Shown here piece after piece: positions 3,683 to 19,481 of a stretch of 20,042 nucleotides of DNA. A program made the translations under genes and the position numbers. The stretch spans positions 1-20,042 of the IMG/VR virus record IMGVR_UViG_3300036819_000187. The stretch is one strand, 5' to 3'. Within the stretch, counting starts at the first letter, position 1. Each line of letters opens with the position of its first letter. The notes below the pieces were generated by a model. The model ran no database searches, was not told the DNA's origin, and saw nothing but the letters and a program-made list of their open reading frames with translations. The stretch comes from a virus.

Positions 3683-3709
3683 CAGCAACAAAAAAGAAAG
3701 GGAAAAACC

Positions 3710-4390: not shown

Positions 4391-4401
4391 ACGCTCCGAA
4401 A

Positions 4402-4420
4402 CAGCCTAACGAACAAAGGA
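4402..4420 (+). repeat. 19-nt repeat covering the capsid-gene ribosome-binding site
   Basis: CAGCCTAACGAACAAAGGA includes the GCCTAACGA word and the AAAGGA SD of the capsid gene (10 bases before ATG 4431). An exact inverted copy lies at 6379-6397, and a 17/19 direct copy at 755-773. All bases were compared by eye. Confidence 0.85.
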
Positions 4421-4430
4421 AAAAAACATC

Positions 4431-5726
4431 ATGAATAACAATCCGTTTTACGAACCAAGGACGTTGCTGGCGCCATTCGAACAAGGGCCTCTCGTCGGAA
4501 CCTTCCTGCGCGACACCTTTTTCGAGGACCGCTCATTCCCGCCGACCGACCTGATCGAATTCGACTTCCGGCGCGGTCGCCGGCGCATGGCGCCCTTCGT
4601 CGCCCCGATCATCGGTGGGAAACTGATGGAGCGGCAGGGCTTTGAGACCCGGGTGTTCCGCGCCCCGCGCATCGCGCCCGTCCGGGCCTTGCGCACGCCC
4701 GATCTGGAGCCGCGCATGATCGGTGAAAACATCTACCAGCCGCAGACGAAGGCGCAGCGCGCCGCCGAGCTGGTCTTGCAGGATTCGATCGATCTCGACG
4801 CTTCGATTACGCGCCGGGAAGAATGGATGTGCCGGGAAGTCCTGGTTAACGGCTCAATCACCGTGAATGCCGATAACGGCTACCAGATGGTGATTGGCTA
4901 TCTCGAAGCCGGCTCCCCCGGAAATTACGTGAGCAATCACACCCCGGTCACGACGAAATGGGACGCTGGCGGAAGCGACCCAATCGCAGACTTGCAGCGG
5001 TCGAAACGCGATATGATCCGCGAGAGCGGCATCAGCCCGAACGTTGCTTTGTTTGGGACGGACGCATGGTCCGCGTTTCTCAATAACGCCAACGTCCGCG
5101 CGATTCTGGACAACCGTCGCATCAATGTGCTGACCATCGACCCGGTGATCGAGAGCGACGCGCTCACCCTCAATACCGTGATTGACGGAATGCAGTGCTA
5201 CGAGTACTCGGACTACTTCGAAGACGACGCCGGCAATCTCTTCGACATGCTGCCGCCCGATCTCGTGCTCCTGGCCTCGACTCGGGTGCAAAACAAAATC
5301 GTTTACGGCGCCTTCACGCAGTTGGAGAAAACGGGTCAAGTGACGCCGCATTTCGTAACTTACCAGCAGGCGCGCATTCCGTATGTTTACGCCGACGAGG
5401 AAAAAGGGCACTTGTTTTATCGCCTCACTTCCTGCCCGCTGCCGATGCCGTATGACATTCTCGGCTTCCGCATCGTGGAAGCTCTCGCCGGAAGCGCCGG
5501 TCCGTTCGGAGCAAAACGCCCGACGTTCAAGAAGAGCCCTGAAGAGGAAAAACTTGAGACAGAAGCGCTCAACGCGAAATCGTCCGACGACCTGAAGCGT
5601 CTCGCCGATGACGAGGGCATCGACCTGAAAGGCGCGAACAGCAAAGCGGACATCGTGGAAGCGATCAAGCAGGGTCGCCGTACGAACGCCGTTGAGATCG
5701 CGCCTCCCGCAAAGGGCAAGAAATAA
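4431..5726 (+). CDS. Major capsid protein, lambda gpE type, with SAP/HeH-like C-terminal extension
   Basis: 431 residues against 341 in lambda gpE. The N-terminal 350 residues show the gpE pattern: FLRDTFFEDRSFPPTDLIEF, then RMAPFVAPIIGGKLMERQGF, the helical QTKAQRAAELVLQDSIDLDA segment, and a C-terminal HFVTYQQARIPYVYADEEKG stretch. It builds the HK97-fold icosahedral shell. The additional C-terminus is a charged linker followed by residues ~383-415 (SSDDLKRLADDEGIDLKGAN and on to IVEAIKQG), a helix-extended-helix motif like SAP/HeH/Rho-N domains, ending in a basic KGKK tail. A DNA- or RNA-binding role for that tail is inference. A good SD (AAAGGA, 10 bases upstream) fits strong expression, and a hairpin follows the stop. 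Confidence 0.93.
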   Translation: MNNNPFYEPRTLLAPFEQGPLVGTFLRDTFFEDRSFPPTDLIEFDFRRGRRRMAPFVAPIIGGKLMERQGFETRVFRAPRIAPVRALRTPDLEPRMIGENIYQPQTKAQRAAELVLQDSIDLDASITRREEWMCREVLVNGSITVNADNGYQMVIGYLEAGSPGNYVSNHTPVTTKWDAGGSDPIADLQRSKRDMIRESGISPNVALFGTDAWSAFLNNANVRAILDNRRINVLTIDPVIESDALTLNTVIDGMQCYEYSDYFEDDAGNLFDMLPPDLVLLASTRVQNKIVYGAFTQLEKTGQVTPHFVTYQQARIPYVYADEEKGHLFYRLTSCPLPMPYDILGFRIVEALAGSAGPFGAKRPTFKKSPEEEKLETEALNAKSSDDLKRLADDEGIDLKGANSKADIVEAIKQGRRTNAVEIAPPAKGKK

Positions 5727-5732
5727 TCCGAT

Positions 5733-5766
5733 CGGGCGCGGAAGGACAAGACAACTTCCGCGCCCG
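5733..5766 (+). terminator. Stem-loop after capsid gene (attenuator or mRNA-stabilising hairpin)
   Basis: A perfect 12-bp inverted repeat (CGGGCGCGGAAG, 5733-5744, with CTTCCGCGCCCG, 5755-5766) encloses a 10-base loop and starts six bases after the capsid stop. There is no run of T after the stem, so it is not a standard intrinsic terminator. Partial termination, Rho-related attenuation, or protection of the capsid mRNA 3' end are all possible, and would explain high capsid but lower downstream expression. Confidence 0.65.
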
Positions 5767-5791
5767 GTTCACTGAAAAGAGGTAGCTTTTT

Positions 5792-5950
5792 ATGAGTGGA
5801 TTTAAGATTCTTTTGCTTCTCGGCATCATCGCCTTTGGTATCGGTGCGATCGTGCCGGCCTTGGTTCCAGGCGGCGGTCCCCGCAGTCTGAACTGGATTA
5901 GCCTCGGGCTCTGTTTTGTCACCGCCGCATGGTTTGTGCGCACACCGTGA
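5792..5950 (+). CDS. Small two-pass membrane protein (52 aa)
   Basis: The ORF runs from ATG 5792 to TGA 5948-5950. It is preceded by an AAAGAGG-type SD (5777-5782) at a spacing of about nine bases, one of the few clear SDs in the window. Residues ~5-25 (KILLLLGIIAFGIGAIVPAL) and ~35-49 (NWISLGLCFVTAAWFV) are hydrophobic and separated by a PGGGPRS turn. This predicts a helical hairpin in the inner membrane with little soluble mass. Its stop overlaps the GTG start of the next gene (GTGA). The size and topology would fit a holin, but it sits in the middle of structural genes with no lysin beside it, so I leave the function open; it may belong with the secreted proteins that follow. Confidence 0.6.
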   Translation: MSGFKILLLLGIIAFGIGAIVPALVPGGGPRSLNWISLGLCFVTAAWFVRTP

Positions 5951-6363
5951 AACGAGCGCTCTTTGTCATCATCTGCCTGCTTGCCTCACTGGCCAGCACT
6001 CGTGCCGGTGAATGGTCGAGTGAGACAGCCGGCAACATTAGCAGCACCCCCGTTCTGGTCGGCGGGAAATGCGACCTGAACGCGGTTCGGGAGCTGATCA
6101 ATGCCGATCCGACCCAGATTGTCTATCTCCATTTCTACAACGCGGCCAGTGCCGGCGACGTGACTGTCGGCACAACCCATCCGCTCCTCACTTTGGGCGT
6201 CGCGGCCGGTCCCGGCCATCTCCCGTTGCCCATCACGGGACAGGTCATCGACAACTTCACGCTCGGGCTCGTGATAGCCGCGACCACATCACCGCTCTAC
6301 AGCGGCACAACCGCACCGAACACCCCACTTGTCGTGTTCCTCACCTTCACTGCGAGACAATGA
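5947..6363 (+). CDS. Secreted beta-rich phage accessory protein with signal peptide
   Basis: 138 residues from GTG 5947. I prefer this to ATG 5929 (six codons upstream) because the GTG overlaps the previous stop as GTGA and places a textbook signal peptide at the N-terminus: MKR, hydrophobic core ALFVIICLLASLAS, and likely cleavage after TRA (residue 20). The mature part (VYLHFYNAASAGDVTVGTTH, then LLTLGVAAGPG and FTLGLVIAATTS) follows a strand pattern seen in small beta-sandwich phage structural proteins that describe a Tyr-Asn-x-Ala loop, a Gly-Thr-x-x-Pro turn and a late TxxxP strand. Those relatives normally lack a signal peptide. Its stop overlaps the next ATG. Exported decoration, or a protein acting on the host envelope, are both possible. 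Confidence 0.6.
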   Translation: MKRALFVIICLLASLASTRAGEWSSETAGNISSTPVLVGGKCDLNAVRELINADPTQIVYLHFYNAASAGDVTVGTTHPLLTLGVAAGPGHLPLPITGQVIDNFTLGLVIAATTSPLYSGTTAPNTPLVVFLTFTARQ

Positions 6364-7685
6364 AGCGGCTGCTTCTCATCCTTTGTTCGTTAGGCTGCGC
6401 GGCGAACTTGTTCGCCCAAGGCGGCCCGCTTACAACTGGCGGCACGACTTCCTTTTCCAGCCTTCCGCAATCGCAATATATCCTGCGGGACATAAACGAT
6501 CTCGCGACCGACCAAATGATGGCGTCGCTCTCCGGTCAGACGGCAGGGACGGCAGCGCAAAATCTTTTCTCCACCCGGACCGATAGTGGGAGCGGAACTT
6601 ATGTCAGAAGCACGACTTGGTTCGGCCACGCCATCGATCTCACCTGCGAGAGCGTTTACAACGACGGCGGCACGCCTCTCCAAACGATCACGCTCGTCGC
6701 GCCCGACATCGGCATTGGCGCGAATCATTACTTTCCCGCCAACGGCTCGCACGTTCGTTTTGTCGCCGCTGACGGGACGATCACGACGCTGACGATCGGT
6801 AGCTCGTCACAGATCGGCTCGACCGACATCCAGGTGATTAAGTTCACGAGCGGCGCGCCGAGCACGATCACGCCCGCGACGATCGCGAGCCCCAATGCGG
6901 AGGGCAACCTGAGCGGCGCTCCCGTTTTGTTCATCGATCAAAATCAGGAGGCATTCACCGGCGATGTTTCCGGCTTTGCCTCTGGAAGCATTGTAGTCGC
7001 GCAGTCGACCAACTCGATCCGTTCAACATTTTGGAAAACGCCGGTGACGGGAGACTCGAGCCATCCGCTCTTTGCTGCCGTCGACGGCAAGGCGATTCTC
7101 CTCGCTGCCTTCCAAACAACTTCTTCCGGGCCTTCCCTGGCTGAGAACGCAGCCGCGATCAACGCGGCGATGACTTCTCTCGGCTCGACCTATCAATTGA
7201 CAGTCGCACCGGTGGCGTCGGCGGCTAACTCGTCCAGCGGAACGAGCAACTCAGTAATGGCTGGAAATGGAATTGGCGGACTCACTCCGGTCACGTTTGC
7301 CGGCGATCTTTCCTACAGCCCAAGCACACACACCGTTACCAACACGTCCTCGGGCGGGACAGTCGGGCAGGCGTTTTTCACCGCCGACGGAGGACTCAGC
7401 GGGCTCGTCACTAAGGGCCTCATCTCGAATGTCACTCGAGCTACCACTCTCGGAGTCTCGCCCAAGTTCACGGTAACTTTCGGCATCGCACAATTGGATG
7501 CGAATTACGACGTGCACGCGATGGCGGACACGACAACGCAAGGCACTGGAGAAAGCGTTTCTCCCGCGCTGATTTCAGGCTCGAAAACGACGACGGGCTT
7601 CCAGATCGAATTCGACAACCCCGATGCAGGCGGAAGCGTCGACCCCGGAGTTTGCAGCATCTCGGTGGAGAAACTCTCACAATGA
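6360..7685 (+). CDS. Secreted trypsin-like serine protease with fibre-type C-terminal domain (putative)
   Basis: 441 residues from ATG 6360. This start is chosen over an upstream in-frame one because it overlaps the preceding stop (ATGA) and begins a signal peptide, MKRLLLILCSLGCAANLFAQ. Residues ~85-285 carry a chymotrypsin-type triad in order: His123 in GIGANHYFPANGSHVRF, Asp156 in GSTDIQVIKF, and Ser233 in GDSSHPLFAAVDGKAILLAA. The segment AAAINAAMTSLGSTYQLTVA (264-283) closes the domain. The usual GDSG is GDSS here, which could alter the oxyanion hole. A Ser/Gly/Thr linker (~286-335) leads to residues ~340-441, resembling a tail-fibre tip or surface beta domain (FTVTFGIAQLDANYDVHAMA, TTTGFQIEFDN). 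A protease acting on host surface protein is inference, and so is whether it ends up on the virion. Confidence 0.6.
   Translation: MKRLLLILCSLGCAANLFAQGGPLTTGGTTSFSSLPQSQYILRDINDLATDQMMASLSGQTAGTAAQNLFSTRTDSGSGTYVRSTTWFGHAIDLTCESVYNDGGTPLQTITLVAPDIGIGANHYFPANGSHVRFVAADGTITTLTIGSSSQIGSTDIQVIKFTSGAPSTITPATIASPNAEGNLSGAPVLFIDQNQEAFTGDVSGFASGSIVVAQSTNSIRSTFWKTPVTGDSSHPLFAAVDGKAILLAAFQTTSSGPSLAENAAAINAAMTSLGSTYQLTVAPVASAANSSSGTSNSVMAGNGIGGLTPVTFAGDLSYSPSTHTVTNTSSGGTVGQAFFTADGGLSGLVTKGLISNVTRATTLGVSPKFTVTFGIAQLDANYDVHAMADTTTQGTGESVSPALISGSKTTTGFQIEFDNPDAGGSVDPGVCSISVEKLSQ
6379..6397 (-). repeat. Inverted copy of the capsid RBS 19-nt repeat
   Basis: TCCTTTGTTCGTTAGGCTG is the exact reverse complement of 4402-4420. 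It encodes part of the signal peptide of the protease-like gene (residues ~7-13). In a shared transcript the two segments could form a 19-bp duplex over the capsid SD. Confidence 0.85.
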
Positions 7686-7717
7686 AACGTTGCCTAACGA
7701 GTCTAACACTCGCCTGA
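7682..7717 (+). CDS. 11-codon ORF MKRCLTSLTLA, possible coupling leader or signal-peptide remnant
   Basis: ATG 7682 overlaps the previous stop (ATGA) and the ORF ends at TGA 7715-7717, four bases before the GTG of the next gene. Like the two signal-peptide genes before it, it begins MKR at an NTGA junction. It contains the GCCTAACGA word (7692-7700). It may pass terminating ribosomes to the SD-less gene downstream, or be the stump of a lost third secreted protein. Translation is unproven. Confidence 0.3.
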   Translation: MKRCLTSLTLA

Positions 7718-7721
7718 TACC

Positions 7722-8084
7722 GTGCTGCGCGACAACTTCGCCACCGATCTTTCCACCGTGTTTATGAACACGGCCGAAATGGCCACCACCCGCGAGTTCC
7801 GGATCAGCGACGGGATGGGAGGCTTCACCATCTTTGACGCGCCGGTGGTCTGGGATCAGGAAGGCTCGAAAGATATGCCGATGGTGAAGATACAGGGCGT
7901 CTTCATGGGCGACGTGCGTTGCCACATCGAAGCGAAATATCTGCCACGCATCCCGCTGGCGGGAGAAATCATCTATTCGCCGGCCAACCAGGTCTGGGAA
8001 TGCATCGATGTGACGGATGAGGAAGGCTGCTACGTTTTGGGATTGAGCGCGACCCGATCGCAAGCCGGAGTGCTCAGCACTTAA
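7722..8084 (+). CDS. Head-tail joining protein, lambda gpFII-like
   Basis: 120 residues from GTG 7722 (lambda FII is 117). The layout matches FII-type connectors: an N-terminal amphipathic segment (LRDNFATDLSTVFMNTAEMA), a variable loop, then a beta-barrel with VKIQGVFMGD, the strand-turn PLAGEIIYSPANQVWECIDV, and a closing GCYVLGLSA. FII caps the filled head and provides the platform for the tail. Position fits: it follows the capsid block and precedes the gpZ-like gene. There is no SD, and initiation may depend on the 11-codon ORF just upstream. ATG 7764 (Met15) is a possible alternative start but would remove the conserved N-terminal helix. Confidence 0.6.
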   Translation: MLRDNFATDLSTVFMNTAEMATTREFRISDGMGGFTIFDAPVVWDQEGSKDMPMVKIQGVFMGDVRCHIEAKYLPRIPLAGEIIYSPANQVWECIDVTDEEGCYVLGLSATRSQAGVLST

Positions 8085-8091
8085 ACCAATC

Positions 8092-8652
8092 ATGGTCGCC
8101 ATCACGATTGATCCAAGAGAACTTGCCAAGCTGGAGCGCGCCATCGGCCACATCAAGGGCGCGGTGCCAAAGGCGATCTCCGCCGCGATCAATCGCACGC
8201 TCGACCGCGGCCGCACCACTCTGCGGCGCGAGATTCGGAAACAGTATTTGATCAAGCAAAAAGACATCCCGGTTAAAGTGCGCCGGGCGAGCGTCTCGCA
8301 TCTCGGCGGTGAAGTCCGCACCGATTCCGGCATGCTGGAATTGGCCAAGTTCAAGATCACGCCCAAAGGGGTGCAAAAGCGCGCCCACAAAAAACCGATC
8401 CGGGCGCAAGTGAAGAAAACGAGCGGCGGCAAACTCATCAAGCACGGCTTCGTCGCGCAAATGCCGAGTGGTTTCGTCGGCCCATTCCTGCGCAAAGGCG
8501 GCACGCGTCTCCCACTCAAAAAACTGCTCACGATCGGCGCGCCCATCATGGCAACTCAACCCGGCGTCGGGCCGGCCGTGAATAAAGCGATGGGCGAAGC
8601 ATTCGCCCGGAACGTCGATTCGCAGATCGATCGATTCCTGAAAGCCGCATGA
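8092..8652 (+). CDS. Minor tail/tail completion protein, lambda gpZ-like
   Basis: 186 residues; lambda gpZ is 192. The protein is strongly basic with the gpZ arrangement: N-terminal helix (LAKLERAIGHIKGAVPKAIS), then AAINRTLDRGRTTLRREIRK with YLIKQKDI, and a late GFVAQMPSGFVGPFLRKG segment, ending in a helix that reaches RFLKAA. In lambda gpZ sits near the head-proximal end of the tail and is needed for DNA to be positioned for injection. It is a siphovirus-type protein but here precedes a contractile sheath gene. Seven bases separate it from the FII-like stop, and its own stop overlaps the next start as ATGA. Confident at family level. Confidence 0.8.
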   Translation: MVAITIDPRELAKLERAIGHIKGAVPKAISAAINRTLDRGRTTLRREIRKQYLIKQKDIPVKVRRASVSHLGGEVRTDSGMLELAKFKITPKGVQKRAHKKPIRAQVKKTSGGKLIKHGFVAQMPSGFVGPFLRKGGTRLPLKKLLTIGAPIMATQPGVGPAVNKAMGEAFARNVDSQIDRFLKAA

Positions 8653-9314
8653 CCACGCCGACGCCCATCTCACCCGCCAATGTGACTGTGCGCTGCCGCA
8701 CGGCTTTCGATTTGGAGCTCACGCTCGTCAAATTCCTGACCAATCTTTTCGGCGGGACGCGGCTCGATAACCCGACCGTCAGTCTGGCGCAGCCTGCGAC
8801 CGTCCCTTACGACTACACGGAGCGGGCGGAAGCGCTCGATTACAAAGTGCCGCCCAAGGTGGTGCGAGGCCGCATCCCACGCACCCTCACGGGCGAAGTT
8901 GCGCTCGATAAAATCTCCGATGTCCCGGTCATCATCGTGCAATCGACTGGGGGCAAGATTAACAACGCGCCGGCCGAGATGGCCTTCGACCGCACCACAA
9001 CCAGAATCCTCTTTGTCGGTTACGACGAGAATCCCGACAGTCAGGGTTATCAGGACATTTTGAACCTGATCGAAACGGCCAAGGCAGCCTTGACGAGTTT
9101 CGGCCAGGGCGGCCTCGATAATGCCTACCCGATTCTCTTCCCGATCGAATGGAAGATCGATTCCGAAGCGTGGCCGCATTTCATTGGCGAGATCAGTTGC
9201 GACTGGCAACTGCCGTCCACGCGGCCGATGCCGGATATGTGGGATGCCCAGGCCTACTCGATTCCGATTCCGGGCGAATGGCTTGAAACGCGACAGGAGG
9301 CGATGGCATCATGA
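8649..9314 (+). CDS. Probable tail terminator/neck protein
   Basis: 221 residues located between the gpZ-like and sheath genes, where the tail terminator (which caps tube and sheath polymerisation) normally lies. I see an N-terminal helix (TAFDLELTLVKFLTNLFGG), a central ILFVGYDENPDSQGYQDILN stretch followed by helix LIETAKAALTSFGQGG, then a strand AYPILFPIEWKIDSE, WPHFIGEISCDWQLP. An alpha/beta protein with a terminator-like mix of strands and one long helix fits gpU/gp15-type terminators, but I recognise no diagnostic signature. Start and stop overlap the neighbours as ATGA at both ends, indicating tight coupling within the connector-tail unit. Confidence 0.45.
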   Translation: MTTPTPISPANVTVRCRTAFDLELTLVKFLTNLFGGTRLDNPTVSLAQPATVPYDYTERAEALDYKVPPKVVRGRIPRTLTGEVALDKISDVPVIIVQSTGGKINNAPAEMAFDRTTTRILFVGYDENPDSQGYQDILNLIETAKAALTSFGQGGLDNAYPILFPIEWKIDSEAWPHFIGEISCDWQLPSTRPMPDMWDAQAYSIPIPGEWLETRQEAMAS

Positions 9315-9652
9315 GCGAGACGATGACTCCGATTCGAGGCCAGGTGATTTACTGCGGCCCGACCATGCCGTCGGTCGGCTTGCAATACGGAACCATCTTT
9401 CGCAACGGCATTCACCCGCATCTTTACAAGGCAATCGAGGAATGCCCGGCGCTCGGCGGCCTCTTCGTGCCGGTGAAAGAATACGCGGCCGTGCGGCGGC
9501 AACTCAATTTCGACATTGCGCGCAACATGCGCGGCACATCCGGCAAACACGTTACTTTTTATCGGGAAGCTCAGACTTGGCTTGCAACGCGGGCCAGACA
9601 GAGTAAAGCACCAGCAGCAGCATCAAAAGGAGTCAAAACTCATGGCATCTAA
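9311..9652 (+). CDS. Conserved phage protein of unknown function preceding the sheath
   Basis: 113 residues. The sequence begins with a strand-rich part (IRGQVIYCGPTMPSVGLQYG, TIFRNG), continues with helical IEECPALGGLFVPVKEYAAV and RRQLNFDIARNMRG, and ends in a basic Ala/Ser-rich tail. Small proteins of this kind often lie directly before contractile sheath genes in myophages, and I infer a tail assembly or structural role. It starts within an ATGA overlap. Its last 11 bases overlap the sheath start, and the sheath SD lies inside its 3' end. No family is recognised. Confidence 0.55.
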   Translation: MSETMTPIRGQVIYCGPTMPSVGLQYGTIFRNGIHPHLYKAIEECPALGGLFVPVKEYAAVRRQLNFDIARNMRGTSGKHVTFYREAQTWLATRARQSKAPAAASKGVKTHGI

Positions 9653-11135
9653 CCTTGGACCATTTCCACACGGAGTATCTTGGACCGATTTACCAACCAG
9701 CGTTATTTCGCCGGTCAACGCAGTGCCGGGCGTCAATGTCGTCTTCGGCGCGGCGCCTCTGCATCTCGTTCTCGACGGCAACACCCGGGTCAACACACCC
9801 GTGCTCTGCAATAGCTACGACGAAGCAGTGACACAGCTTGGCTTCTCGAGCGATTGGGACACGTTCGATCTCTGCGAGCACATGGACGCAGCCTTCGTCG
9901 AGTTCGGCGTTTACCCGGTCATTTATGTGCCGGTGAACGACCCGACCGAAGGCGATACGACCTATTCCGGCACGCAATTCACACTCGTTAACGGCCAGAT
10001 CGATACCGAGGAGGGATTGATCGCGTGGCTCATCGTGGTCAAGAGCGCGGACGCGAGCGTGACTTATGTTCTGGGAACCGATTATCTGCTCAGCCTTTCG
10101 GATGCCAATACCTGGATCATCACGCGCGTGGCGACGGGAGCGATTCTCGACGATCATTCCATCATCACGGTCAGCGGCAAACTCCCAAACGCGAGCCCGA
10201 TCGATGGCACCGACGTGATCGGCGGCATTGTCACCGAAACCGGAGCCCGGCTCGGCCTCGAAGTGATCGAAAACGTTTTCCCGACGACCGCACTCGTCCC
10301 GGGAGTGATCATCTGCCCGAAATGGTCGAAAGACCCGGATGTGGCGGCCGCAATGGAAGCGAAATCGGAATCGATCAACGGCTGCTTTTCCTGCACCTGC
10401 TTGATTGACGTCGATACTTCTGTCGTGACCAAGGCAGCCGACGTTCTGGAGTGGAAGAACTCGAATAACATCGTCTTCCCGCGGCAGGAACTGCTTTTCG
10501 GCAAGCCGGCCCTGGTCGGGACAAGCGGGACGAAGATTTTCAACTTCGCCTCGCAGCAAGGCCCGCTCCTGCAATACACCGACGTGAATAACGGTCAGGG
10601 CCTGCCTTACTGCTCGCCGTCAAACAAAAATCTGCGCATGAATGCGCTCGTTCTCGAAGATGGAACGGAGATTTCAATGCACCTGCTCGATGCCAACATG
10701 CTCAATGGCCAGGGTGTGATCACGGCGCTGAACTGGATCGGCGGCTGGCGTTCCTGGGGCAACCGGACGGCGGCTTACCCGGCCGACACGGATGTCAAGG
10801 ACATGTTCATCAACGTGCGCCGGATGTTCGATTACATCGGCAACACGGTTGTGCTCACGATCTGGCAAAAGGTGGACGAACCGGGCAACCGCCGCCTCAT
10901 CGATGCGGTCGTCAACTCGCTTCAGCTTTGGCTCGATGGGCTCTCCAATCAGGGAGCACTTCTGGGCGCGCGGATCGAGTTCGATCAATCCGAAAACCCG
11001 ACGACCGAGTTGCTCAACGGCCACTACGTCTTTCACATTTATCTCGCGGTCCCGACGCCGGCCGAATGGCTCGACTTCCGCATCGAGTATTGGGTCCCGT
11101 ATGTGGACAATCTTTTCACTGACGCCGCGGCCTAA
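9642..11135 (+). CDS. Contractile tail sheath protein (P2 gpFI type)
   Basis: 497 residues from ATG 9642, chosen over an upstream in-frame ATG (9516) because AAGGAG (9627-9632) sits nine bases before it and the N-terminus then begins MASNLGPFPHGVSWTDLPTS. The protein polymerises around the tube and contracts to drive it through the host envelope. The C-terminal half carries sheath hallmarks: GWRSWGNRTAAYPADTDVKD, FINVRRMFDYIGNTVVLTIW, and a terminal YLAVPTPAEWLDFRIEYWVP. It is longer than P2 gpFI (396 aa); the extra length is around residues ~95-200, likely a surface-exposed insertion domain. It is followed by the tube gene after 20 bases. Gene order sheath-tube-chaperone-tape measure confirms the call. 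Confidence 0.92.
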   Translation: MASNLGPFPHGVSWTDLPTSVISPVNAVPGVNVVFGAAPLHLVLDGNTRVNTPVLCNSYDEAVTQLGFSSDWDTFDLCEHMDAAFVEFGVYPVIYVPVNDPTEGDTTYSGTQFTLVNGQIDTEEGLIAWLIVVKSADASVTYVLGTDYLLSLSDANTWIITRVATGAILDDHSIITVSGKLPNASPIDGTDVIGGIVTETGARLGLEVIENVFPTTALVPGVIICPKWSKDPDVAAAMEAKSESINGCFSCTCLIDVDTSVVTKAADVLEWKNSNNIVFPRQELLFGKPALVGTSGTKIFNFASQQGPLLQYTDVNNGQGLPYCSPSNKNLRMNALVLEDGTEISMHLLDANMLNGQGVITALNWIGGWRSWGNRTAAYPADTDVKDMFINVRRMFDYIGNTVVLTIWQKVDEPGNRRLIDAVVNSLQLWLDGLSNQGALLGARIEFDQSENPTTELLNGHYVFHIYLAVPTPAEWLDFRIEYWVPYVDNLFTDAAA

Positions 11136-11155
11136 CCAAAAGGAGATTTCACGCC

Positions 11156-11683
11156 ATGCAAATTCCAAGCACCCTATCGAACTACAATGTGTTCAAGGAC
11201 GGAAGTCAGCTTATCGGGCTGGCCGATGTCACCTTGCCGCATCTGCAAAACCTGACCGATCAGCTCAAGGGCGCCGGGATCTTCGGCGAGATCGAGATGC
11301 CGGTGCAGGCGCATTTCCAGTCCATGACCGTCATGTTCAAATGGCTCAGCATTACGGACGACATCTTTTTCGCCACGATCCAGAACGGCGCGCAGCTCGA
11401 TTGCTGGGCCTCCGTCCAGGGGCACGACAGCGGGACGAACCAAATCGTGCACGACGGCTGGCGCGTCGTCATCAACACGGCGCCCAAATCGACCAACTTC
11501 GGCAAGCTCGAAGTCGGCACGAAAGGCGACCTTGAGACTGAGTATGAGGTCATCTCGATGCGCATCTATCACAACGATGGGTTGCGCCTCGAGGTGGATA
11601 AGGAAAACGCTATCTGCCGCTCGTGGGATGGCTCGACCCTGGTGGACAGTGCGGCTCAGATTCGGCAACAAATTGGCTTGTAG
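11156..11683 (+). CDS. Major tail tube protein (P2 gpFII type)
   Basis: 175 residues; P2 gpFII is 172. It stacks as hexameric rings to form the inner tube. Characteristic segments: IPSTLSNYNVFKDGSQLIGL at the N-terminus, VTLPHLQNLTDQLKGAGIFG, EIEMPVQAHFQSMTVMFKW and DLETEYEVISMRIYHNDGLR, with VDKENAICR near the end; these correspond to the conserved tube signatures of P2-like phages. A strong SD (AAGGAG, about 10 bases upstream) lies just after the sheath stop, in keeping with near-stoichiometric expression of sheath and tube. Confidence 0.92.
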   Translation: MQIPSTLSNYNVFKDGSQLIGLADVTLPHLQNLTDQLKGAGIFGEIEMPVQAHFQSMTVMFKWLSITDDIFFATIQNGAQLDCWASVQGHDSGTNQIVHDGWRVVINTAPKSTNFGKLEVGTKGDLETEYEVISMRIYHNDGLRLEVDKENAICRSWDGSTLVDSAAQIRQQIGL

Positions 11684-11708
11684 CAGCGTATCCATTCCGT
11701 GCTAGACT
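11678..11708 (+). promoter_or_regulatory. Weak sigma70-like promoter candidate before the tail chaperone
   Basis: TTGTAG (11678-11683) and an extended -10, TGC-TAGACT (11700-11708), are 19 bases apart. This would start transcription near the ATG at 11718, which has no SD. The spacing is long and only 4 of 6 -10 bases match, so chance is a serious alternative. Confidence 0.2.
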
Positions 11709-11717
11709 CGACGCCTT

Positions 11718-12140
11718 ATGGATGACTCACTCTTGAAGAAACCGGGCGAGGAATCATCGCCTAACGAGGACGAGGCGCAATCTGAAGGCAAAGCGTATCG
11801 GAGTCTCGCGATTGAACAGGCACAGCCGCCCTTGCGACTGGTTTTCGATCCACCTGTCGAATTTGACGAGAAGAAATACTCGGAGTTGATCTTCGACTTC
11901 GATGCGCTGATCGGAAAAGATTTCCAGCGCGCGGAACGTGAGTTCAACAGGCTCTACAAAGCCGATAAGAACGAAACCGTCCTGCCGGAAATGAAACATC
12001 TTTACCACTGCATTCTGGCGGCCAACGTCGCCAACGTGCCAGTCGGGTTGATCATGAAACTGCCGCGGCGCTATTACATGCCGTTGCGGCTCGAAGTTTT
12101 AAAAGCCTGTGGCAGCTCGCCGGACGCGGAGAACGAATAA
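11718..12140 (+). CDS. Tail assembly chaperone, zero-frame product (gpE analogue)
   Basis: 140 residues between tube and tape measure, the invariant place of tail assembly chaperones that coat the tape measure during assembly and are absent from the virion. The acidic N-terminus is followed by the family pattern: LRLVFDPPVEFDEKKYSELI, then FDFDALIGKDFQRAEREFNR, HLYHCILAANVANVPVGLIM and a final PRRYYMPLRLEVLKACG. The 3' end contains TTTAAAA, a canonical -1 slippery heptamer, and the protein continues in the -1 frame (next entry). There is no SD. Function is assigned from the combination of position, motif pattern and frameshift. Confidence 0.8.
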   Translation: MDDSLLKKPGEESSPNEDEAQSEGKAYRSLAIEQAQPPLRLVFDPPVEFDEKKYSELIFDFDALIGKDFQRAEREFNRLYKADKNETVLPEMKHLYHCILAANVANVPVGLIMKLPRRYYMPLRLEVLKACGSSPDAENE

Positions 12141-12310
12141 CCGATCTTCTGCGCTCCGTCTCGATGCGTTTGGCGCGAGCGGTCGGGGGTGGCGTGGAAT
12201 ACTGGATGGAGCTGCCGATCTCGGAGTTATTGCTTTACATGCTTGAGCTGGCCCGACAACTGGAGCAGGAAAAAGAAGCGGCCGAACGCGGGCAAAAGAA
12301 ATTGAATTAA
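11718..12310 (+). CDS. Tail assembly chaperone, -1 frameshift product (gpE+E' analogue)
   Basis: Slipping back one base at T-TTA-AAA (12098-12104) joins the first 129 residues to 68 residues read in the -1 frame, ending at TAA 12308-12310 (197 aa in all). The extension starts SLWQLAGRGERITDLLRSVS and contains GVEYWMELPISELLLYMLEL, matching the W...LP..EL pattern of P2 E' and lambda T extensions, then ends in a charged helix. The -1 frame has no good start of its own (ATG 12164 would lose half), and it stays open across the zero-frame stop. P2 and lambda both make a short and a long chaperone this way at a fixed ratio. The tape measure starts one base after its stop. Confidence 0.82.
12098..12104 (+). 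other. Programmed -1 ribosomal frameshift site (TTTAAAA)
   Basis: The heptamer fits X-XXY-YYZ in the zero frame (T TTA AAA), with Leu128 and Lys129 codons slipping to TTT AAA. The only downstream stem I can find by eye is a modest CGGAG/CTCCG pairing (12127-12131 with 12154-12158); a stronger stimulator may need folding software. Confidence 0.8.
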
Positions 12311-12311
12311 A

Positions 12312-14348
12312 ATGGCAGTCGCCGGTCAACGACAATACAGCGCGGTCTTCGCAATCGGGGCCAGGTTCATGTCGAGCTTCAAAGGCGTCATGGCGCAGGC
12401 GCAAGCGAGGTTGCATCGTCTGAATGCGGCCGCGATCGCTCTCGGTCGCAACGTTCTGAAATTCGCGACGATTTTTGGCGGTCTCTCGGCCTTTGGAGCC
12501 GGCACGGTCTTGAGCCAAATATTCGAGGGCGCCAATGAAGCGGCCGAGGAACTCGATACGACGACGCGAAGGATCACCGAGGCCTTCATGACGCATGTCA
12601 AAATGCAGAAACTTGGGCGGGACATGACGGAGCAGGTCGTCCAGAAAATCTATAAGTATAACGAGGCGCTTTCTCAGCAGGGGGTGATTTCAAAGCAGGC
12701 TCTGGATGCGACCGCATCAATGCTGGCGCTTCAAGGTCTTTCGCCCAAAAAAATTGTTGGCACTCTTCGTCCTCTTAGTGACATGCTGGTTGCGACCAAA
12801 GGCATCGCGCAGGCGCAGGCGATGTTGCCGGATGCAGCCTTTGCCTTCGGCAAAGCGATTCGCACCGGGATGGCGAGGCCGCTCTTTCAATTCGGGCTCT
12901 CGTTAACCAAGCCGGAGCAGCAAATACTTTCGCAGAAGGCCAAGGTCGGGGATTTGGAAGGCGCCTACAAATTCTTGATGAAGATGGTGGTCAAATACTC
13001 AGGTGCGAGTGCGCGAGCCCTCAAAACTCCCGAAGGCAGAATTCACGCCCTGGCCAATGCAATCGGCGACATGCGCGAGCGGATCGGAGAGGCATCCCTG
13101 GAGTCGCGCGCGAGAATGTCCGACGCGTGGCTTGCCATTCTGCCTCGCGTCGAGCCGATTCTCATCAAATTGAAGGTTCTATCGAACAACGCGATGAGGA
13201 GTATCGCGGAGTATGTCAAGAGAGTAGGCATTCCAGCGTTTAAAGAGTTCGAGGTGTTTTTGAAAGGGCCGTTAGGCGATGCACTTAATCGTCTCAAAGC
13301 AGCTTGGACCGACATGGTAAGCAACATCGGTCCCGCCTTCGCACAGATGATGGGAAGACTGACAGGAAGCACGAAGAGCTTTCAAGGATCATTGGGTGAC
13401 ATACTCATCGGCGCGCTCAATAAACTTTCCGGTTTGCTGAAATCCGTCGGAAATAACGCGTCGTGGCTCGTGCCTCTTGTCACCGCACTTGTGCCGGCAT
13501 TTTATGCGTTCTCGGCTGCTGTCGGGGTGGCGAACGTGGCGCTCGCGTTAACGCCGGTAGGGTGGTTGATCATGGGACTTGCCGCAATAGGTGCGGGACT
13601 TGTTTATCTGAAACTCCAATTCGGCAGTCTGGAGAACGCTCGGAATGCATTTTGGAATTGGCTAAAACAAATACCGGTTCTCGGATCGGTCATCCAGTGG
13701 TGGAACAAACTCGCTGCGACCATGACGGGTTTGCTCGGCGGTTATTGGAACGCACTGACGCAGAATTGGAATAGCATTAGGACTGCGTTCGAAACGGCAA
13801 AGCCGATCCTCGTCGGCGTCTTCAAGGAAATCGGCAGTGCGATCTTGGAACAAATCCTGATGCCGATTCACGCGATTCAAACCGCTTGGTCGAGTTCGAT
13901 CGATTTCATCAAACGTCACATGCCAAGTTTCGGCGGCGTCAGACCGAGCGTCCCAACAGCGGCAGTCCCGCAAGCCGCCGCTTCCGCCGCCAAGGCTGCT
14001 TCGAAGATTCCCGGCATGGCAACTGGTGGAATCATTCGCGGTCACTCGCTTTTGCAGATTGCCGAGCGTGGACCGGAAGCCGTTATCCCGCTCTCGGGCG
14101 GTCCGCGCGCCAGAGGTCTGCTCGATTATGCCAGCCGCGCCATCGGCGTCGGCGGCGCGACGAATAACGGCGGCGATACCCACATCACAATCGGAGGCCC
14201 GCAGATCACGATCCACGGCAACGCGAGCGAGACGGAACAGCGTTCGCTCGCATCGCGCCTGCAAAAATATAGCGCCGATTTGGCTTCGCAGTTGAAGTCC
14301 GCGACCCGCGACGCCCGCCGCCTTTCCTTTGAATCAGGCTATGCCTGA
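12312..14348 (+). CDS. Tail tape measure protein
   Basis: 678 residues. The protein fixes tail length, fills the tube lumen and is delivered ahead of DNA. Evidence: position after the chaperone pair; long helical N-terminus (ARLHRLNAAAIALGRNVLKF); Ala/Gln/Lys-rich helices through the middle; a hydrophobic segment at ~384-436 (WLVPLVTALVPAFYAFSAAV to LAAIGAGLVYL) able to span the inner membrane; and the C-terminal signature GMATGGIIRGHSLLQIAERG PEAVIPLSGG seen in many tape measures. At about 1.5 angstrom per residue this predicts a tail near 100 nm. It contains one inverted GCCTAACG word (13270-13277). No peptidoglycan hydrolase domain is visible. The start lies one base after the chaperone stop, without SD. 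Confidence 0.9.
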   Translation: MAVAGQRQYSAVFAIGARFMSSFKGVMAQAQARLHRLNAAAIALGRNVLKFATIFGGLSAFGAGTVLSQIFEGANEAAEELDTTTRRITEAFMTHVKMQKLGRDMTEQVVQKIYKYNEALSQQGVISKQALDATASMLALQGLSPKKIVGTLRPLSDMLVATKGIAQAQAMLPDAAFAFGKAIRTGMARPLFQFGLSLTKPEQQILSQKAKVGDLEGAYKFLMKMVVKYSGASARALKTPEGRIHALANAIGDMRERIGEASLESRARMSDAWLAILPRVEPILIKLKVLSNNAMRSIAEYVKRVGIPAFKEFEVFLKGPLGDALNRLKAAWTDMVSNIGPAFAQMMGRLTGSTKSFQGSLGDILIGALNKLSGLLKSVGNNASWLVPLVTALVPAFYAFSAAVGVANVALALTPVGWLIMGLAAIGAGLVYLKLQFGSLENARNAFWNWLKQIPVLGSVIQWWNKLAATMTGLLGGYWNALTQNWNSIRTAFETAKPILVGVFKEIGSAILEQILMPIHAIQTAWSSSIDFIKRHMPSFGGVRPSVPTAAVPQAAASAAKAASKIPGMATGGIIRGHSLLQIAERGPEAVIPLSGGPRARGLLDYASRAIGVGGATNNGGDTHITIGGPQITIHGNASETEQRSLASRLQKYSADLASQLKSATRDARRLSFESGYA

Positions 14349-14398: not shown

Positions 14399-14824
14399 AT
14401 GGCAACCTTCAATAAGTTTTACGACTTTGTTCGTCAGCTCGGCAATAAAGAGCATGATCTTGATAGTGATGCGATCACCGTGGCGCTGACCAATACCGCT
14501 CCGGTCGCGACCAACGCCTACATGAACGCGATCACGGAGATCGCTTATACCGGCGTCTCGGGAAGCCGGGCGCTGACCACGAAGGTCTGGGCGCAAACCG
14601 GAGGCGTGGCGAAGCTGACTGCGGACGATCTTGTGCTCACAGGAACGGGCTCCGGGTTTGGTCCTTTCCGCTACGTCGTGCTCTTTAACGACACGCCTTC
14701 CACGTCGGCGACAAAAGGGTTGATCGGGTGGATCGATTACGGCAGCTCGATCAGTGTCAATGCAGGTGAGACTTTCACCGTCGATACCGACCAGGTTAAC
14801 GGCATTCTGACCATCGGTCCGTAG
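14399..14824 (+). CDS. Conserved phage beta-rich structural protein, function unknown
   Basis: 141 residues beginning MATFNKFYDFVRQLGNKEHD. It follows a pattern I know from many tailed phages: a short N-terminal helix, a DAITVALTNTAPVATNAYMN segment, then alternating strands with ITEIAYTGVSG, AQTGGVAKLTADDLVLTGTG, FGPFRYVVLFNDTP and a terminal LIGWIDYGSSISVNAGETFT. Relatives are usually uncharacterised virion proteins near fibre or tail-tip genes; a role as a fibre-associated or decoration protein is inference. The 50-base gap before it holds no SD, and the leader is A/C-rich. Confidence 0.6.
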   Translation: MATFNKFYDFVRQLGNKEHDLDSDAITVALTNTAPVATNAYMNAITEIAYTGVSGSRALTTKVWAQTGGVAKLTADDLVLTGTGSGFGPFRYVVLFNDTPSTSATKGLIGWIDYGSSISVNAGETFTVDTDQVNGILTIGP

Positions 14825-14847: not shown

Positions 14848-17697
14848 ATGGCGATCGTTGTCACTAACCGCTATGCGCAGGGGAAGACGGTCAACGCTTC
14901 CTCCTACCAGACGGGAGCGTTTACCCCGAATGCCGACGCTCTCTTAATCGCCTGCTTCGCCGGCACGCACGGGAGCAGCGTGGCGCCGTCCATCCCGGCG
15001 CTCAGCGACACGTCAGGTCTGGCATGGGTCCAGATCGCGGACCTGATCTATAACACCACCGGGGTCAACCGCGCCCGCATCACGGTCTTCGCCGCTTTCG
15101 TCGGCTCGATGCCGGCCAGCACTCAGATCACGGCAGTCTACAGCTCCGCTCTGAATGGCATCCGGATGCTGGTTTTCGATGCCACGGGAACGGATGTGGC
15201 CACTTCCGGCGTGCTCGGATGCTTCGTCCAGAGCGTACTTTCAACCCCCGATTCTTCCGGGCTGAACCTTGCTCTCACTCTTGCCAGCGCGGGCGACCCG
15301 GATAATCGCTCGCTCGCATTTGTCGATCATTCGGCCAACGAAACGATCACGCCACGAGCGAGGTGGGATACGATTGGCACGGGCTCGCACGATGTGCCGA
15401 GCTTCGCCGCCAGCAGTCAGTGGAGCGTAGACTTCTTTGACACGAATATCAGCGCCAGTTGGGCCACGAGCACGTCTTATGGCGCAATGGCTTTTGAGCT
15501 GAAGGCCTCGACTCTCACGGCCTATGCGGTGGCTTATGGTGCGGCCCACTTCGCTTTCACGGGCAAACCGGTCGGGCTTTTGATCGGCCATCGGCTCAGC
15601 GTCGCAACCGGCGCTCTTGCCTTTGCCGGCGTCGCTGAATCCCTGCGGGTCAGGCGTACTTTGACTCTGGCGGGTTCCGGTTCCACTTCCACGGCCGGTC
15701 CCATCGGCTGGTATAAATTGACCGCGGCGACAAGTGGCGGGGTGGACATCACGGGCGACGAAGGATTGACCAATCCGGTCTGCGCCGGTTATCGCTACGC
15801 CGGTCGCGCCCTCGACTGGGTGACGGGCAATTCCGGCGCCGCGCTGGTTTACGACTGGAGCTTTTTCGACATTCTGCACGATCAATGTTTCGCCAACGGC
15901 AAAACCTACGGCTTGTCCATCGCCTTCGGCGTCACCACGCCGACGCTCCTTTATTCCGCTCCCTTTAACGTCAACACCTACGAGTTGGTGGACGATAACC
16001 GTTACCCGGGCCAGTCGATGCCGATCCCGTGGGATGCTAATTGGCTGAGCGTGCTCGGCCAGATGATTACCGACCTGACGAACCACATCGCGGCGCGAAG
16101 CGGCGGGTTGGCGGTCTGCAAATACATCGCCATGACGGGTGGCGGCCAGGCTAATTCCTTCATCGTTTCGAGCGGCACAACCGATTACGCCAATCTGAAC
16201 GCGCTCGCCATCTCAGCCGGGTATGGCACGACGACGCGTGGCGGCCGCACTTATTCGCAGCTCTACACCGCCATGACGGCGGTTTGGGCGGCTATCGTGC
16301 CGATGTATTCGAACGCCTTTCCCGGCATGGCGATTTTCTTTACCAGGAACGATCTCTACGAAGCGACAGCCACGAGCAATCCGACCGAAGGCACGATCGT
16401 TCAGAACAACATCATCAACGACTGGAAAGCGCTGCTCCCGAATACGCTCAGCTCGCTTTACAACGGCCAGGTGCCGACGTGTCCGCCGCACACTGGCGTC
16501 GTCACGCCCGTCGTCGGCCCCGGCACTTGCCAGGCTTTCGAGTCCTGCGCTCACATGCGGGGCGATTATCCCGGCAGCGGCAGCTACAAGCTGGCCTGCT
16601 CCGCCTACACCGGCACGCCCACACTCGTGCAAGTGTGCGACGATTTCTGTTATTCCGTCACGGAAAGCGATAAGCCGGCGGCGGAAGTTTATGTCGGCGA
16701 TTTGTCCGATCCCGATCTGGCCAGCACGTGGGCCTTTCATCTCGCTCGTATCAACGCCGGGCTTGGCGGCATCCCGGCGAGCAATTTCGCCTGCACCTTC
16801 AACGATGTAACGCTCACTTTTGGCCGGAAGGTGGCTCCGAGTGCGGTCAATTACCGATTCAGCACAATCCCGACTTTCGTGCGCGTCGCTCGCGCCCTCA
16901 GCACCGTCAAAGCGAGTTTCGGGTTCATCGGCGCGGCCGTCGTTTTTGGGATCGGACTGCCGGTCGCCTCGGCCAATTACGCTTTCGGCGCCCCATTGGT
17001 GGGGACGACCTTTGGCCTCACCGTTCATGTCGCCGCGACGGCCTTTGCCTACACCACGAATGGCGTCGGGTTTAACAGCAGTCAGTTTCTGGACATCGAT
17101 GCCGGCGCTTTTGGCTACAGCGCGAGCAACGTAAGTCTTCTCGTCGCTCGCAGCGTCGCGGTTGCCTACGCGCGATATGGTTTCACGGGCGACGACGGGG
17201 AGCTTGTTCTCAGTTATGTCGCCTCCCTGGGACGCGGGGACTTTGCTTTCGGCGCTCAGGACGTCACGCTCTTCAAGGCGGTTAATTCTGGGGTTGAAAC
17301 TGTTTCTTATGCCTACAGCGCCGCCGACGTGGGATTCGATCTTGGAATTCCTTTGGAGAGCGCTTCATTTCCTTTCGCCGGGAATTCTGTCGGGCTCGAT
17401 TATGTTCCACTCAGCGGTCAACTGCCGCCGCTTATCACCAACCCGCTCTTATTCCCGCCCGGCACGAAGCTCTACACCACCGTGCAGGGCGATCGATGGG
17501 ACTTGATCTCACTCCGCGTTTACGGGATGCAGCGCGGCTCGGATCATCACGAGGATTTGTTGATCGCGGCTAATCCCGGCTTGCAGGATTACAACGAGTT
17601 CCCCGGCGGCCTCTACGTCGTCGTGCCGGACTTGCCGGTGCAAACCGTCATTCCGCTCGTGCCCTGGAAGAACGCTTCGATTGTCACGGGCTCATGA
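14848..17697 (+). CDS. 949-aa tail fusion: beta-domain, beta-repeats, glycosidase-like domain, beta-repeats, C-terminal gpX/LysM
   Basis: One uninterrupted frame. Residues 1-220: beta-sandwich-like N-terminus (GAFTPNADALLIACFAG). ~226-272: two copies of a ~22-residue strand repeat with a central F/Y-x-F-x-G motif (GAAHFAFTGKPVGLLIG; TGALAFAGVAESLRVRR). ~284-640: a Trp/Asp-rich alpha/beta region resembling a TIM-barrel glycoside hydrolase (FANGKTYGLSIAFGV, MPIPWDANWLSVLGQMITDL, AEVYVGDLSDPDLASTWAFH), without a clear catalytic Glu pair. ~643-852: about ten more repeats. ~867-935: P2 gpX/LysM-like (GTKLYTTVQGDRWDLISLRV YG, LLIAANPGLQDYNEFPGG LYVVVP). gpX is normally ~70 aa and acts at the baseplate hub-wedge junction. 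The stop overlaps the gpD-like start (ATGA). The end domains are firm; the glycosidase reading is tentative. Confidence 0.75.
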   Translation: MAIVVTNRYAQGKTVNASSYQTGAFTPNADALLIACFAGTHGSSVAPSIPALSDTSGLAWVQIADLIYNTTGVNRARITVFAAFVGSMPASTQITAVYSSALNGIRMLVFDATGTDVATSGVLGCFVQSVLSTPDSSGLNLALTLASAGDPDNRSLAFVDHSANETITPRARWDTIGTGSHDVPSFAASSQWSVDFFDTNISASWATSTSYGAMAFELKASTLTAYAVAYGAAHFAFTGKPVGLLIGHRLSVATGALAFAGVAESLRVRRTLTLAGSGSTSTAGPIGWYKLTAATSGGVDITGDEGLTNPVCAGYRYAGRALDWVTGNSGAALVYDWSFFDILHDQCFANGKTYGLSIAFGVTTPTLLYSAPFNVNTYELVDDNRYPGQSMPIPWDANWLSVLGQMITDLTNHIAARSGGLAVCKYIAMTGGGQANSFIVSSGTTDYANLNALAISAGYGTTTRGGRTYSQLYTAMTAVWAAIVPMYSNAFPGMAIFFTRNDLYEATATSNPTEGTIVQNNIINDWKALLPNTLSSLYNGQVPTCPPHTGVVTPVVGPGTCQAFESCAHMRGDYPGSGSYKLACSAYTGTPTLVQVCDDFCYSVTESDKPAAEVYVGDLSDPDLASTWAFHLARINAGLGGIPASNFACTFNDVTLTFGRKVAPSAVNYRFSTIPTFVRVARALSTVKASFGFIGAAVVFGIGLPVASANYAFGAPLVGTTFGLTVHVAATAFAYTTNGVGFNSSQFLDIDAGAFGYSASNVSLLVARSVAVAYARYGFTGDDGELVLSYVASLGRGDFAFGAQDVTLFKAVNSGVETVSYAYSAADVGFDLGIPLESASFPFAGNSVGLDYVPLSGQLPPLITNPLLFPPGTKLYTTVQGDRWDLISLRVYGMQRGSDHHEDLLIAANPGLQDYNEFPGGLYVVVPDLPVQTVIPLVPWKNASIVTGS

Positions 17698-18857
17698 TTA
17701 CCCAAGTCCGCAGCGCCCGCCCATCGCTCATTCTCAATGGCACGGATTATTACGACAAGCTCGCGCCCTACTTTGTCACTCTCGAGTACACAGATAATTG
17801 CGACGGTGAAAAGGCGGACGATCTCAGCATCCAGCTCGGCGACCGGGACAAGCATTTTATTTCCGATTGGATGCCGGACAAAGGCACCTTTCTCGATGTC
17901 TCGATTATCGCGCAGCGCTGGCTCGCGCCCAACGCGCCGGCTCTCTCGCTCGATTGCGGCCGGCTTTGGATTGATTCGGTCGAACTGGAAATCCCGGCCA
18001 ACTCCGTCACGATCAAAGGCAGCTCCATCCCAACGAGTGCGTTTCTTAAAGCGAGCGACGAGACGCGAGGCTGGGAAAGCACTTCTTTGCAGGGCATCGC
18101 TCAGCAGGTCGCGAGCGAGAATTCGATGACGCTCGATTACCAGAGCAGCACAAACCCGCGTTACGATCGGGTTGAGCAGACGGAAGAAAGCAGCCTCGCT
18201 TTCCTCATGAAACTGGCCCGGGACGCGAAGCTCTCGATTAAAATTCATCGCAACGCGATCGTGATTTTCGACGAAGAGACTTACGAAGCTGCTGCCGCAA
18301 AATTTACGCTCTGGTATGGCAACGATGTGCCCGCGCCTGCGGGTGTGCCGGCTTACCGGATGACTGGCGCCCATTTTACCACCAGTCTCGTCGATACGAC
18401 CAAGACAGCGCGATTGAAGCATGCCAGACCCGAGACGGGACTGACGACGAACGAAGATTTCTCCGCCGATGACGACATATCGGATAACCTGACCAATAAC
18501 ATCAACGAGGATCCCGGTTACGGATCGGATGGCGGTGAGGGTGAAGGCGGCGGCGATGGCGGCGCTCGTCGGTTTGGCGATGGCCCCGATCCCACCCAAA
18601 TCGATTACAGTCTCGACGATGGCTCCGCGGCCGGTCAGCGCAAGGCGAAGTCCTCAGTGCGCGAGGCAAACAAACATAAGTGGACTGCGAGCATCGATCT
18701 TGCGCTTGGAAACCCGTTGATCGCTGCCGGGATGACGTGCAACGTGGTCGGAGTGGGAAATTACGACGGCAAATATTTCATCGAAAGCGCGAAGCACGTC
18801 GTCGGCCCCATGTATAATACTTCACTGGAAATCCGGCGTTGTTTGGTGGGATACTGA
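17694..18857 (+). CDS. Baseplate hub/late control protein gpD-like
   Basis: 387 residues; P2 gpD is 387. It forms the trimeric hub (gp27-like) joining tube and spike. N-terminal signature: SLILNGTDYYDKLAPYFVTL, CDGEKADDLSIQLGDRDKHF, then WMPDKGTFLDVSI. Midway: SLQGIAQQVASENSMTLDYQ and QTEESSLAFLMKLARDAKLS, the conserved gpD core. Near the end: RKAKSSVREANKHKWTASID, NYDGKYFIESAKHVVGP. A low-complexity Gly/Asp/Glu stretch at ~270-300 (DPGYGSDGGEGEGGGDGG) replaces an ordinary loop. The start overlaps the stop of the gpX fusion, and gene order X-D-V matches P2-like tails. In P2 the same gene name reflects effects on late expression; here only the structural role is supported. Confidence 0.9.
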   Translation: MITQVRSARPSLILNGTDYYDKLAPYFVTLEYTDNCDGEKADDLSIQLGDRDKHFISDWMPDKGTFLDVSIIAQRWLAPNAPALSLDCGRLWIDSVELEIPANSVTIKGSSIPTSAFLKASDETRGWESTSLQGIAQQVASENSMTLDYQSSTNPRYDRVEQTEESSLAFLMKLARDAKLSIKIHRNAIVIFDEETYEAAAAKFTLWYGNDVPAPAGVPAYRMTGAHFTTSLVDTTKTARLKHARPETGLTTNEDFSADDDISDNLTNNINEDPGYGSDGGEGEGGGDGGARRFGDGPDPTQIDYSLDDGSAAGQRKAKSSVREANKHKWTASIDLALGNPLIAAGMTCNVVGVGNYDGKYFIESAKHVVGPMYNTSLEIRRCLVGY

Positions 18858-18863
18858 AACGCG

Positions 18864-19481
18864 ATGGCACGAAATCTGGGCGAGACCGGCTACACCAAAA
18901 CGCCGGACAATCGGTTCAAATCGAGTATTCGAATCGGAATCGTGGCTGAAGTCGTGCCCACGGCCACGGGTGCGAATGTGCGGGTCATCTTTCCCGACTT
19001 GGTCGATCACAATAACCAGCCGCTCATCAGCAAGCCAATCCCAGTTTTGCAATCGGCTGCGAGCAAAAAACAGAGCTTCGCGCTTCCCCGGCTCGGAACA
19101 AACGTGGTCGTAGCCAAGCTGCCCAACGGCACGGCCGATTACATGGTGCTCGGCAGTTTTTACACCTCGAACAATCCGCCGCCTGTGACTGATCCAAATC
19201 TGGACTACACGAAATACGACGATGGGAGCGTGATTCAGTTCGACGCCGCTAACGGCACCTTGACTTGGAATTTGAAAGGCGGCATCACTCTCGAATGTCA
19301 GGGCAACATCGTGATCAAGTCCGACGCCGGCACTCTCACGCTGCAATCGAGCGGACTCCTGAACATGGTCGCGCCCAACATCAAGTTACAAGGCACGGTT
19401 GAGATTGACGGCGACATTACTCACACCGGCGGCATGACGACGAGCGGCGTGCACACTGACGCGAACGGAGTGCACACCTAA
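18864..19481 (+). CDS. Baseplate assembly/spike protein gpV-like
   Basis: 205 residues; P2 gpV is 211. The N-terminal part (IRIGIVAEVVPTATGANVRV, then IFPD, PRLGTNVVVAKLPNG, YMVLGSFYTSNNPP) is the OB-fold domain. Residues ~125-205 form a strand-rich spike with short periodic repeats (GTLTWNLKGGITLECQGNI, LTLQSSGLLNMVAPNIKLQG, VEIDGDITHTGG), ending GVHTDANGVHT. The spike trimer pierces the outer membrane. Known P2-type spikes end in an HxH iron site; here His187, 197 and 204 lie close to the tip but not as HxH, with a doubled GVHT. It begins six bases after the gpD-like stop. Confidence 0.88.
   Translation: MARNLGETGYTKTPDNRFKSSIRIGIVAEVVPTATGANVRVIFPDLVDHNNQPLISKPIPVLQSAASKKQSFALPRLGTNVVVAKLPNGTADYMVLGSFYTSNNPPPVTDPNLDYTKYDDGSVIQFDAANGTLTWNLKGGITLECQGNIVIKSDAGTLTLQSSGLLNMVAPNIKLQGTVEIDGDITHTGGMTTSGVHTDANGVHT

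Follow-up and report, generated by a model that had tools for sequence, protein, structure and literature searches.

Gene Context of the Fusion

The window, as the whole stretch of DNA analysed is called here, is a 20,042-base fragment of an uncultured phage (IMG/VR record IMGVR_UViG_3300036819_000187, positions 1 to 20,042) and represents an incomplete genome. Since it carries genes for a portal, a head protease, the capsid, the neck, the sheath, the tube, the tape measure, gpD and gpV, it can be assigned to a P2-like contractile-tail phage. The tape-measure gene (12312–14348, plus strand, as are all window features given below) marks the upstream border of the proposed insertion and is followed by the gene for a 141-aa phrog_644 protein (14399–14824), the cassette partner of the fibre. 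Next comes the coding sequence of the fusion (14848–17697), a 949-aa protein composed of an N-terminal domain, a repeat stalk split by a GH42-like domain, a Pro-rich linker and a gpX/LysM domain. Its stop codon overlaps the start of the gpD baseplate hub gene (17694–18857) in an ATGA, and the gpV baseplate spike gene (18864–19481) lies downstream. The fusion is therefore found between the tape measure and gpD of a contractile-tail operon, which is the position of the Phage_tail_X/LysM glue. Elsewhere in the window, a 538-aa ORF (6069–7685), flanked by the major capsid gene and the neck genes, has no Pfam or PHROGs matches, and Pfam matches of window proteins to Mn_catalase and UTP20 were rejected as being at chance level.

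The C-Terminal gpX/LysM Domain

gpX is a small protein that normally resides inside the tail baseplate. In the fusion it forms residues 874–949 (17467–17694), where Pfam PF05489 matches residues 877–934 (40.5 bits, E 2e-10, with a curated cut-off of 22 bits) and phrog_46 matches residues 875–944 (E 9e-13), so that the boundary given in an earlier note on this DNA, at about residues 867–935, was correct to within a few residues. Single-sequence comparison with the PDB gave weak matches to the PA0627 glue (6u5b, E 0.012) and to tail protein X (2ltf, E 0.014). An AlphaFold2 model of residues 862–949, built on an alignment of 53 gpX sequences that leaves out rows from annotated records, has a mean pLDDT of 80 and shows the LysM fold. 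Foldseek aligns it with the glue of pyocin R2 (6u5b_6; rmsd 2.3, 34% identity, TM 0.79 by target length, probability 0.99, E 0.13), and further matches in the PDB include chains with a LysM domain from the A-1(L), AlgoCIS, phiCD508, phi812, P1, Mu, PVC and Milano baseplates. The matches are mainly LysM proteins, some of them non-phage. Because the domain is small, all Foldseek E-values lie above 0.05, and the sequence evidence therefore weighs most for its identity as gpX; the fold nonetheless agrees with the structural match to gpX/LysM that the earlier note had proposed to look for. The LysM glue is typically a small standalone protein, and the two fused phages, with 949 and 580 aa, depart from this, although small size is not strictly defining, since other LysM fusions exist. 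No second gpX was found in the window, which is a fragment, or in the 50-kb contig of the second fused phage, neither being a complete genome; the fused domain is the only gpX found in either contig, as the earlier reading of the locus had entailed.

An Uninterrupted Frame That Recurs in a Second Phage

The frame runs without interruption from the ATG at 14848 to the stop codon at 17695–17697, which confirms the single 949-residue frame described before. The earlier remark that no internal Met directly precedes gpX also holds, as ATG is absent from residues 791–885. GTG or TTG codons occur at residues 828, 836 and 879, in each case without a Shine-Dalgarno-like sequence, and no start with a ribosome-binding site was found ahead of gpX in the window or in the second phage. 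Over all 949 codons the third position is the highest in GC, and this codon-position signature is continuous in the fusions of both phages.

The second phage (IMGVR_UViG_3300038441_001406, hereafter L010) is a distinct phage with a gpD about 60% identical to that of the window. Its fusion of 580 aa (3489–5231) has the same architecture minus the GH-like insert and is embedded in the same gene order of tape measure, phrog_644, fusion, gpD and gpV, with phrog_644 proteins that are 77% identical. The two fusions share 43% identity over 241 aa in the N-terminal domain and 32% over 353 aa in the repeat stalk and gpX, while the gpX ends are 61% identical and the gpX of L010 reaches 26.8 bits against PF05489, above the cut-off. 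Another phage with gpX at the C-terminus of a long ORF, for which the earlier note had suggested a search, thus exists.

These observations bear on whether a sequencing or assembly error could have merged a fibre gene with an ordinary gpX gene by erasing the stop and start that separated them. The rarity of the architecture would fit such an error, as true in-frame coding fusions make up only two (the window and L010) of the 173 distinct gpX cores of our survey, which was seeded with the gpX subfamily of the window and P2-like relatives and does not cover the Phage_tail_X family as a whole. By contrast, L010 independently has the same architecture, and in both phages gpX lacks a preceding start signal and the codon-position GC signature is unbroken. 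An artefact of this kind is extremely improbable, because a distinct phage shares the fusion. Both examples are metagenomic (n = 2).

Relatives retrieved via gpD or gpX have gpX as a separate gene, mostly of 70–130 aa, in the interval from the tape measure to gpD. The gpD tree joins the window and L010 as sister taxa (support 100/98) within a set of phages that have gpX as a standalone gene, and a single derived origin is therefore enough to explain the fusion. Two other long frames ending in gpX, in L064 (2610–5204, 865 aa) and L222 (1920–3707, 596 aa), were rejected, since the GC pattern upstream is that of a shifted frame; they are shifted-frame read-through in high-GC DNA and overlap the tape-measure gene. 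Shorter gpX-ending frames in L193, L197, L214 and L260 were likewise rejected as fusions due to a shifted-frame GC signature upstream. Pattern scans found no relatives of the whole protein and, for the N-terminal domain, only the L010 contig; searches of plasmid and phage records gave no further gpX fusion, and scans of genome contigs with gpX and with gpD confirmed no relative.

The N-Terminal Extension

The N-terminal domain, a putative distal tip (residues 1–221; 14848–15510), is conserved with the L010 fusion over 241 aa and has a weak match to phrog_38872 (E 1.2e-5). It is followed by the initial stretch of the repeat stalk, roughly two units of the HFAFTGKPVGL... type (residues 222–280; 15511–15687), and, after the inserted domain, by the main stalk of about ten units of ~22 residues (residues 641–855; 16768–17412), recognised by self-comparison with a peak at lag 22 that exceeds all 300 shuffles. 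Similar repeats occur in other phages, in fibre-type ORFs that in several cases directly adjoin phrog_644, and the fusion thus shares its elongated repeat stalk with fibre-type proteins. Together with the PF05489 and phrog_46 matches, the 22-residue repeats bear out the earlier description of gpX as C-terminal to a long, fibre-like protein with beta-type repeats. Arrays of ~22-residue “FTLTGxDxxL” repeats recur near phrog_644 in otherwise different phages (L125, L127, L129, L144, L146 and others), where in the fibre-type ORFs they often lie below variable N-terminal domains. A full-length AlphaFold2 model based on two sequences was set aside (pLDDT 27).

The stalk is interrupted by a putative TIM-barrel of about 360 residues (residues 281–640; 15688–16767), which is missing from the L010 fusion and is homologous to a separate 500-aa gene product of the L010 phage (phmmer E 2.4e-8). 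That protein in turn resembles GH42 weakly (Pfam E 0.0085, short of the cut-off; beta-galactosidase 6y2k in the PDB, E 0.0055), while the inserted domain itself has no direct GH42 match, and a pattern scan for its relatives returned the L010 contig only. In the sister phage, the GH42-like gene (L160, 5219–6721) adjoins a gene (6718–13587) whose 2289-aa product weakly matches Ig-like domains (HYDIN/VesB). The acid/base catalytic motif of GH42 is an Asn-Glu after the fourth strand. In a manual alignment, the corresponding residues are GG in the window and GQ in the 500-aa protein, and catalysis by the inserted domain is doubtful, since the expected acid/base glutamate is apparently replaced in both. 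The earlier label “possibly enzymatic” therefore stands as far as the kinship of the insert with a weakly GH42-like protein is concerned, but not as regards the acid/base residue, and a glycan-binding domain derived from an enzyme is at least as likely as an enzyme. A tethered depolymerase, with the middle domain as an active glycosidase, could draw on the weak GH42 similarity of the L010-phage homolog, but it is highly unlikely given the apparently altered motif, an identity of only 25% in the alignment and a sister fusion that does entirely without the domain.

Residues 856–873 (17413–17466) form a Pro-rich linker to gpX, which has a Pro-rich counterpart in the L010 fusion; Pro-rich N-terminal tails are also present in many standalone gpX proteins. 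Such a linker, probably flexible, could be a site of processing, in which one chain is cut to yield free gpX and a separately attached fibre or other tail-associated protein, the fusion serving only to equalise their stoichiometry. This is the main rival to a lasting fusion, since the linker between the barrel and the LysM domain of Alg7 in AlgoCIS was found to be cleaved (PMC8894135). However, no protease or conserved cleavage motif was identified, and the two linkers, from the window and from L010, show no sequence conservation, so that processing appears unlikely, if still worth bearing in mind.

Comparison With Known LysM-Containing Baseplate Proteins

The fusion shares its LysM-like domain, its place before gpD and its fold with the standalone gpX/PA0627 glue (PF05489) of P2, pyocin R2 and IMG/VR relatives, but has ~870 extra N-terminal residues compared with the ~70–130 aa of these proteins. 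LysM domains on larger baseplate chains are known from Milano gp25, Mu gp43, PVC/Afp and AlgoCIS Alg7, where the domain (BW4) is part of the tube initiator or centrepiece and, in the Milano, PVC/Afp and Alg7 chains, is C-terminal (PMC10811340, PMC11915804, PMC8894135). In these the partner is an internal protein of the tube or hub type, whereas in the window it is a fibre-like protein with a repeat stalk. A511 gp102 and SPO1-like phages likewise have a fused baseplate protein, with LysM at the C-terminus of BW1 (PMC10811340), yet the partner there is the sheath-initiating wedge protein rather than an appendage. In the open-access literature we found no fusion of LysM/gpX to an external fibre; the domain is known, while its covalent pairing with a fibre-like protein is new by this comparison.

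AlgoCIS Alg11 resembles the fusion in placing carbohydrate-binding-type domains within a core baseplate protein (PMC8894135), but its domains are inserted in a wedge protein with neither LysM nor a repeat stalk. As the large carbohydrate-binding-module domains of Alg11 cage the spike (PMC8894135), the extension could by analogy reinforce or shield the baseplate instead of binding a receptor, and fibre genes other than the fusion are present in the L010 phage. The stalk repeats, however, are like those of fibre-type ORFs with variable tips, and a GH-like domain has been swapped in, as would be expected of an adhesin, which makes a structural shield distinctly improbable.

Proposed Origin of the Fusion

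The simplest history would be that a cassette made up of the phrog_644 gene and a fibre gene with a repeat stalk inserted into the late operon of a P2-like myophage, downstream of the tape measure and upstream of gpX, and that an in-frame fusion subsequently linked the fibre to the tail at the gpX N-terminus. The relative L003 has gpX as a standalone gene; its phrog_644 (9329–10150) lies downstream of the baseplate genes, after J, with a LamG-like fibre ORF behind it, which points to a cassette that moves between positions. In other phages, phrog_644 has repeat-bearing fibre-type ORFs immediately after it or no more than a few kilobases further on. Acinetobacter phage HFM1 (L166) resembles the window in having a receptor-binding-type gene beside gpX and before gpD, namely an 878-aa tailspike-like gene (3337–5973) downstream of a 114-aa gpX, but here the two are separate genes. 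This arrangement indicates that the neighbourhood of gpX accepts appendage genes.

A Glue Subunit as a Putative Anchor of Reversed Fibres

Overall, we consider it probable that a fibre cassette landed beside gpX and was fused to it, that gpX has kept its role as glue, and that its N-terminal arms serve as built-in adhesins. What is proposed here on a fixed copy number, on exposure at the surface and on binding to a receptor is by analogy with homologous baseplates. The baseplate of A-1(L) has six LysM proteins that connect the hub with the wedges, and their N-terminal tail heads downwards to the wedge (PMC10966104), while the LysM protein of pyocin R2 touches neighbouring wedge units and was named glue (PMC10811340). 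The gpX/LysM domain of the fusion would still glue the hub to the wedges in about six copies per tail, and its N-terminal tail would carry the repeat stalk, the N-terminal tip and, in the window phage, the GH42-derived domain outside the baseplate. Provided that the fused gpX fills the usual LysM site, the baseplate would have about six stalks emerging from it.

Ordinary fibres are anchored by their N-terminus (PMC10684548) and carry the receptor domain at the C-terminus. The only baseplate domain of the fusion is C-terminal, so its polarity would be the opposite, with an anchoring C-terminus and a distal N-terminus. The arms may act as adhesins that bind surface glycans, cutting of these being less likely. 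Since the L010 phage also carries fibre-type genes downstream, receptor binding may depend mainly on a protein other than the fusion, whose appendage probably complements ordinary fibres rather than replacing them. A more specific version, which seems to us as readily right as wrong, holds that the glue subunit has been turned into a C-terminal anchor that makes about six reversed fibres an obligatory covalent part of the baseplate, that these could relay receptor contact directly to the joint between hub and wedges, which opens on contraction, and that modules such as the GH-derived domain are swapped into the stalk.

If the chain stays intact, the baseplate itself would set the number of adhesins, a separate step of fibre attachment would be needless, and receptor contact would be mechanically tied to the opening of the joint for contraction. 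The N-terminal tail of gpX would then be a site at which an insertion of more than 800 residues is naturally tolerated, and this tolerance may offer a new angle for testing how receptor contact triggers contraction.
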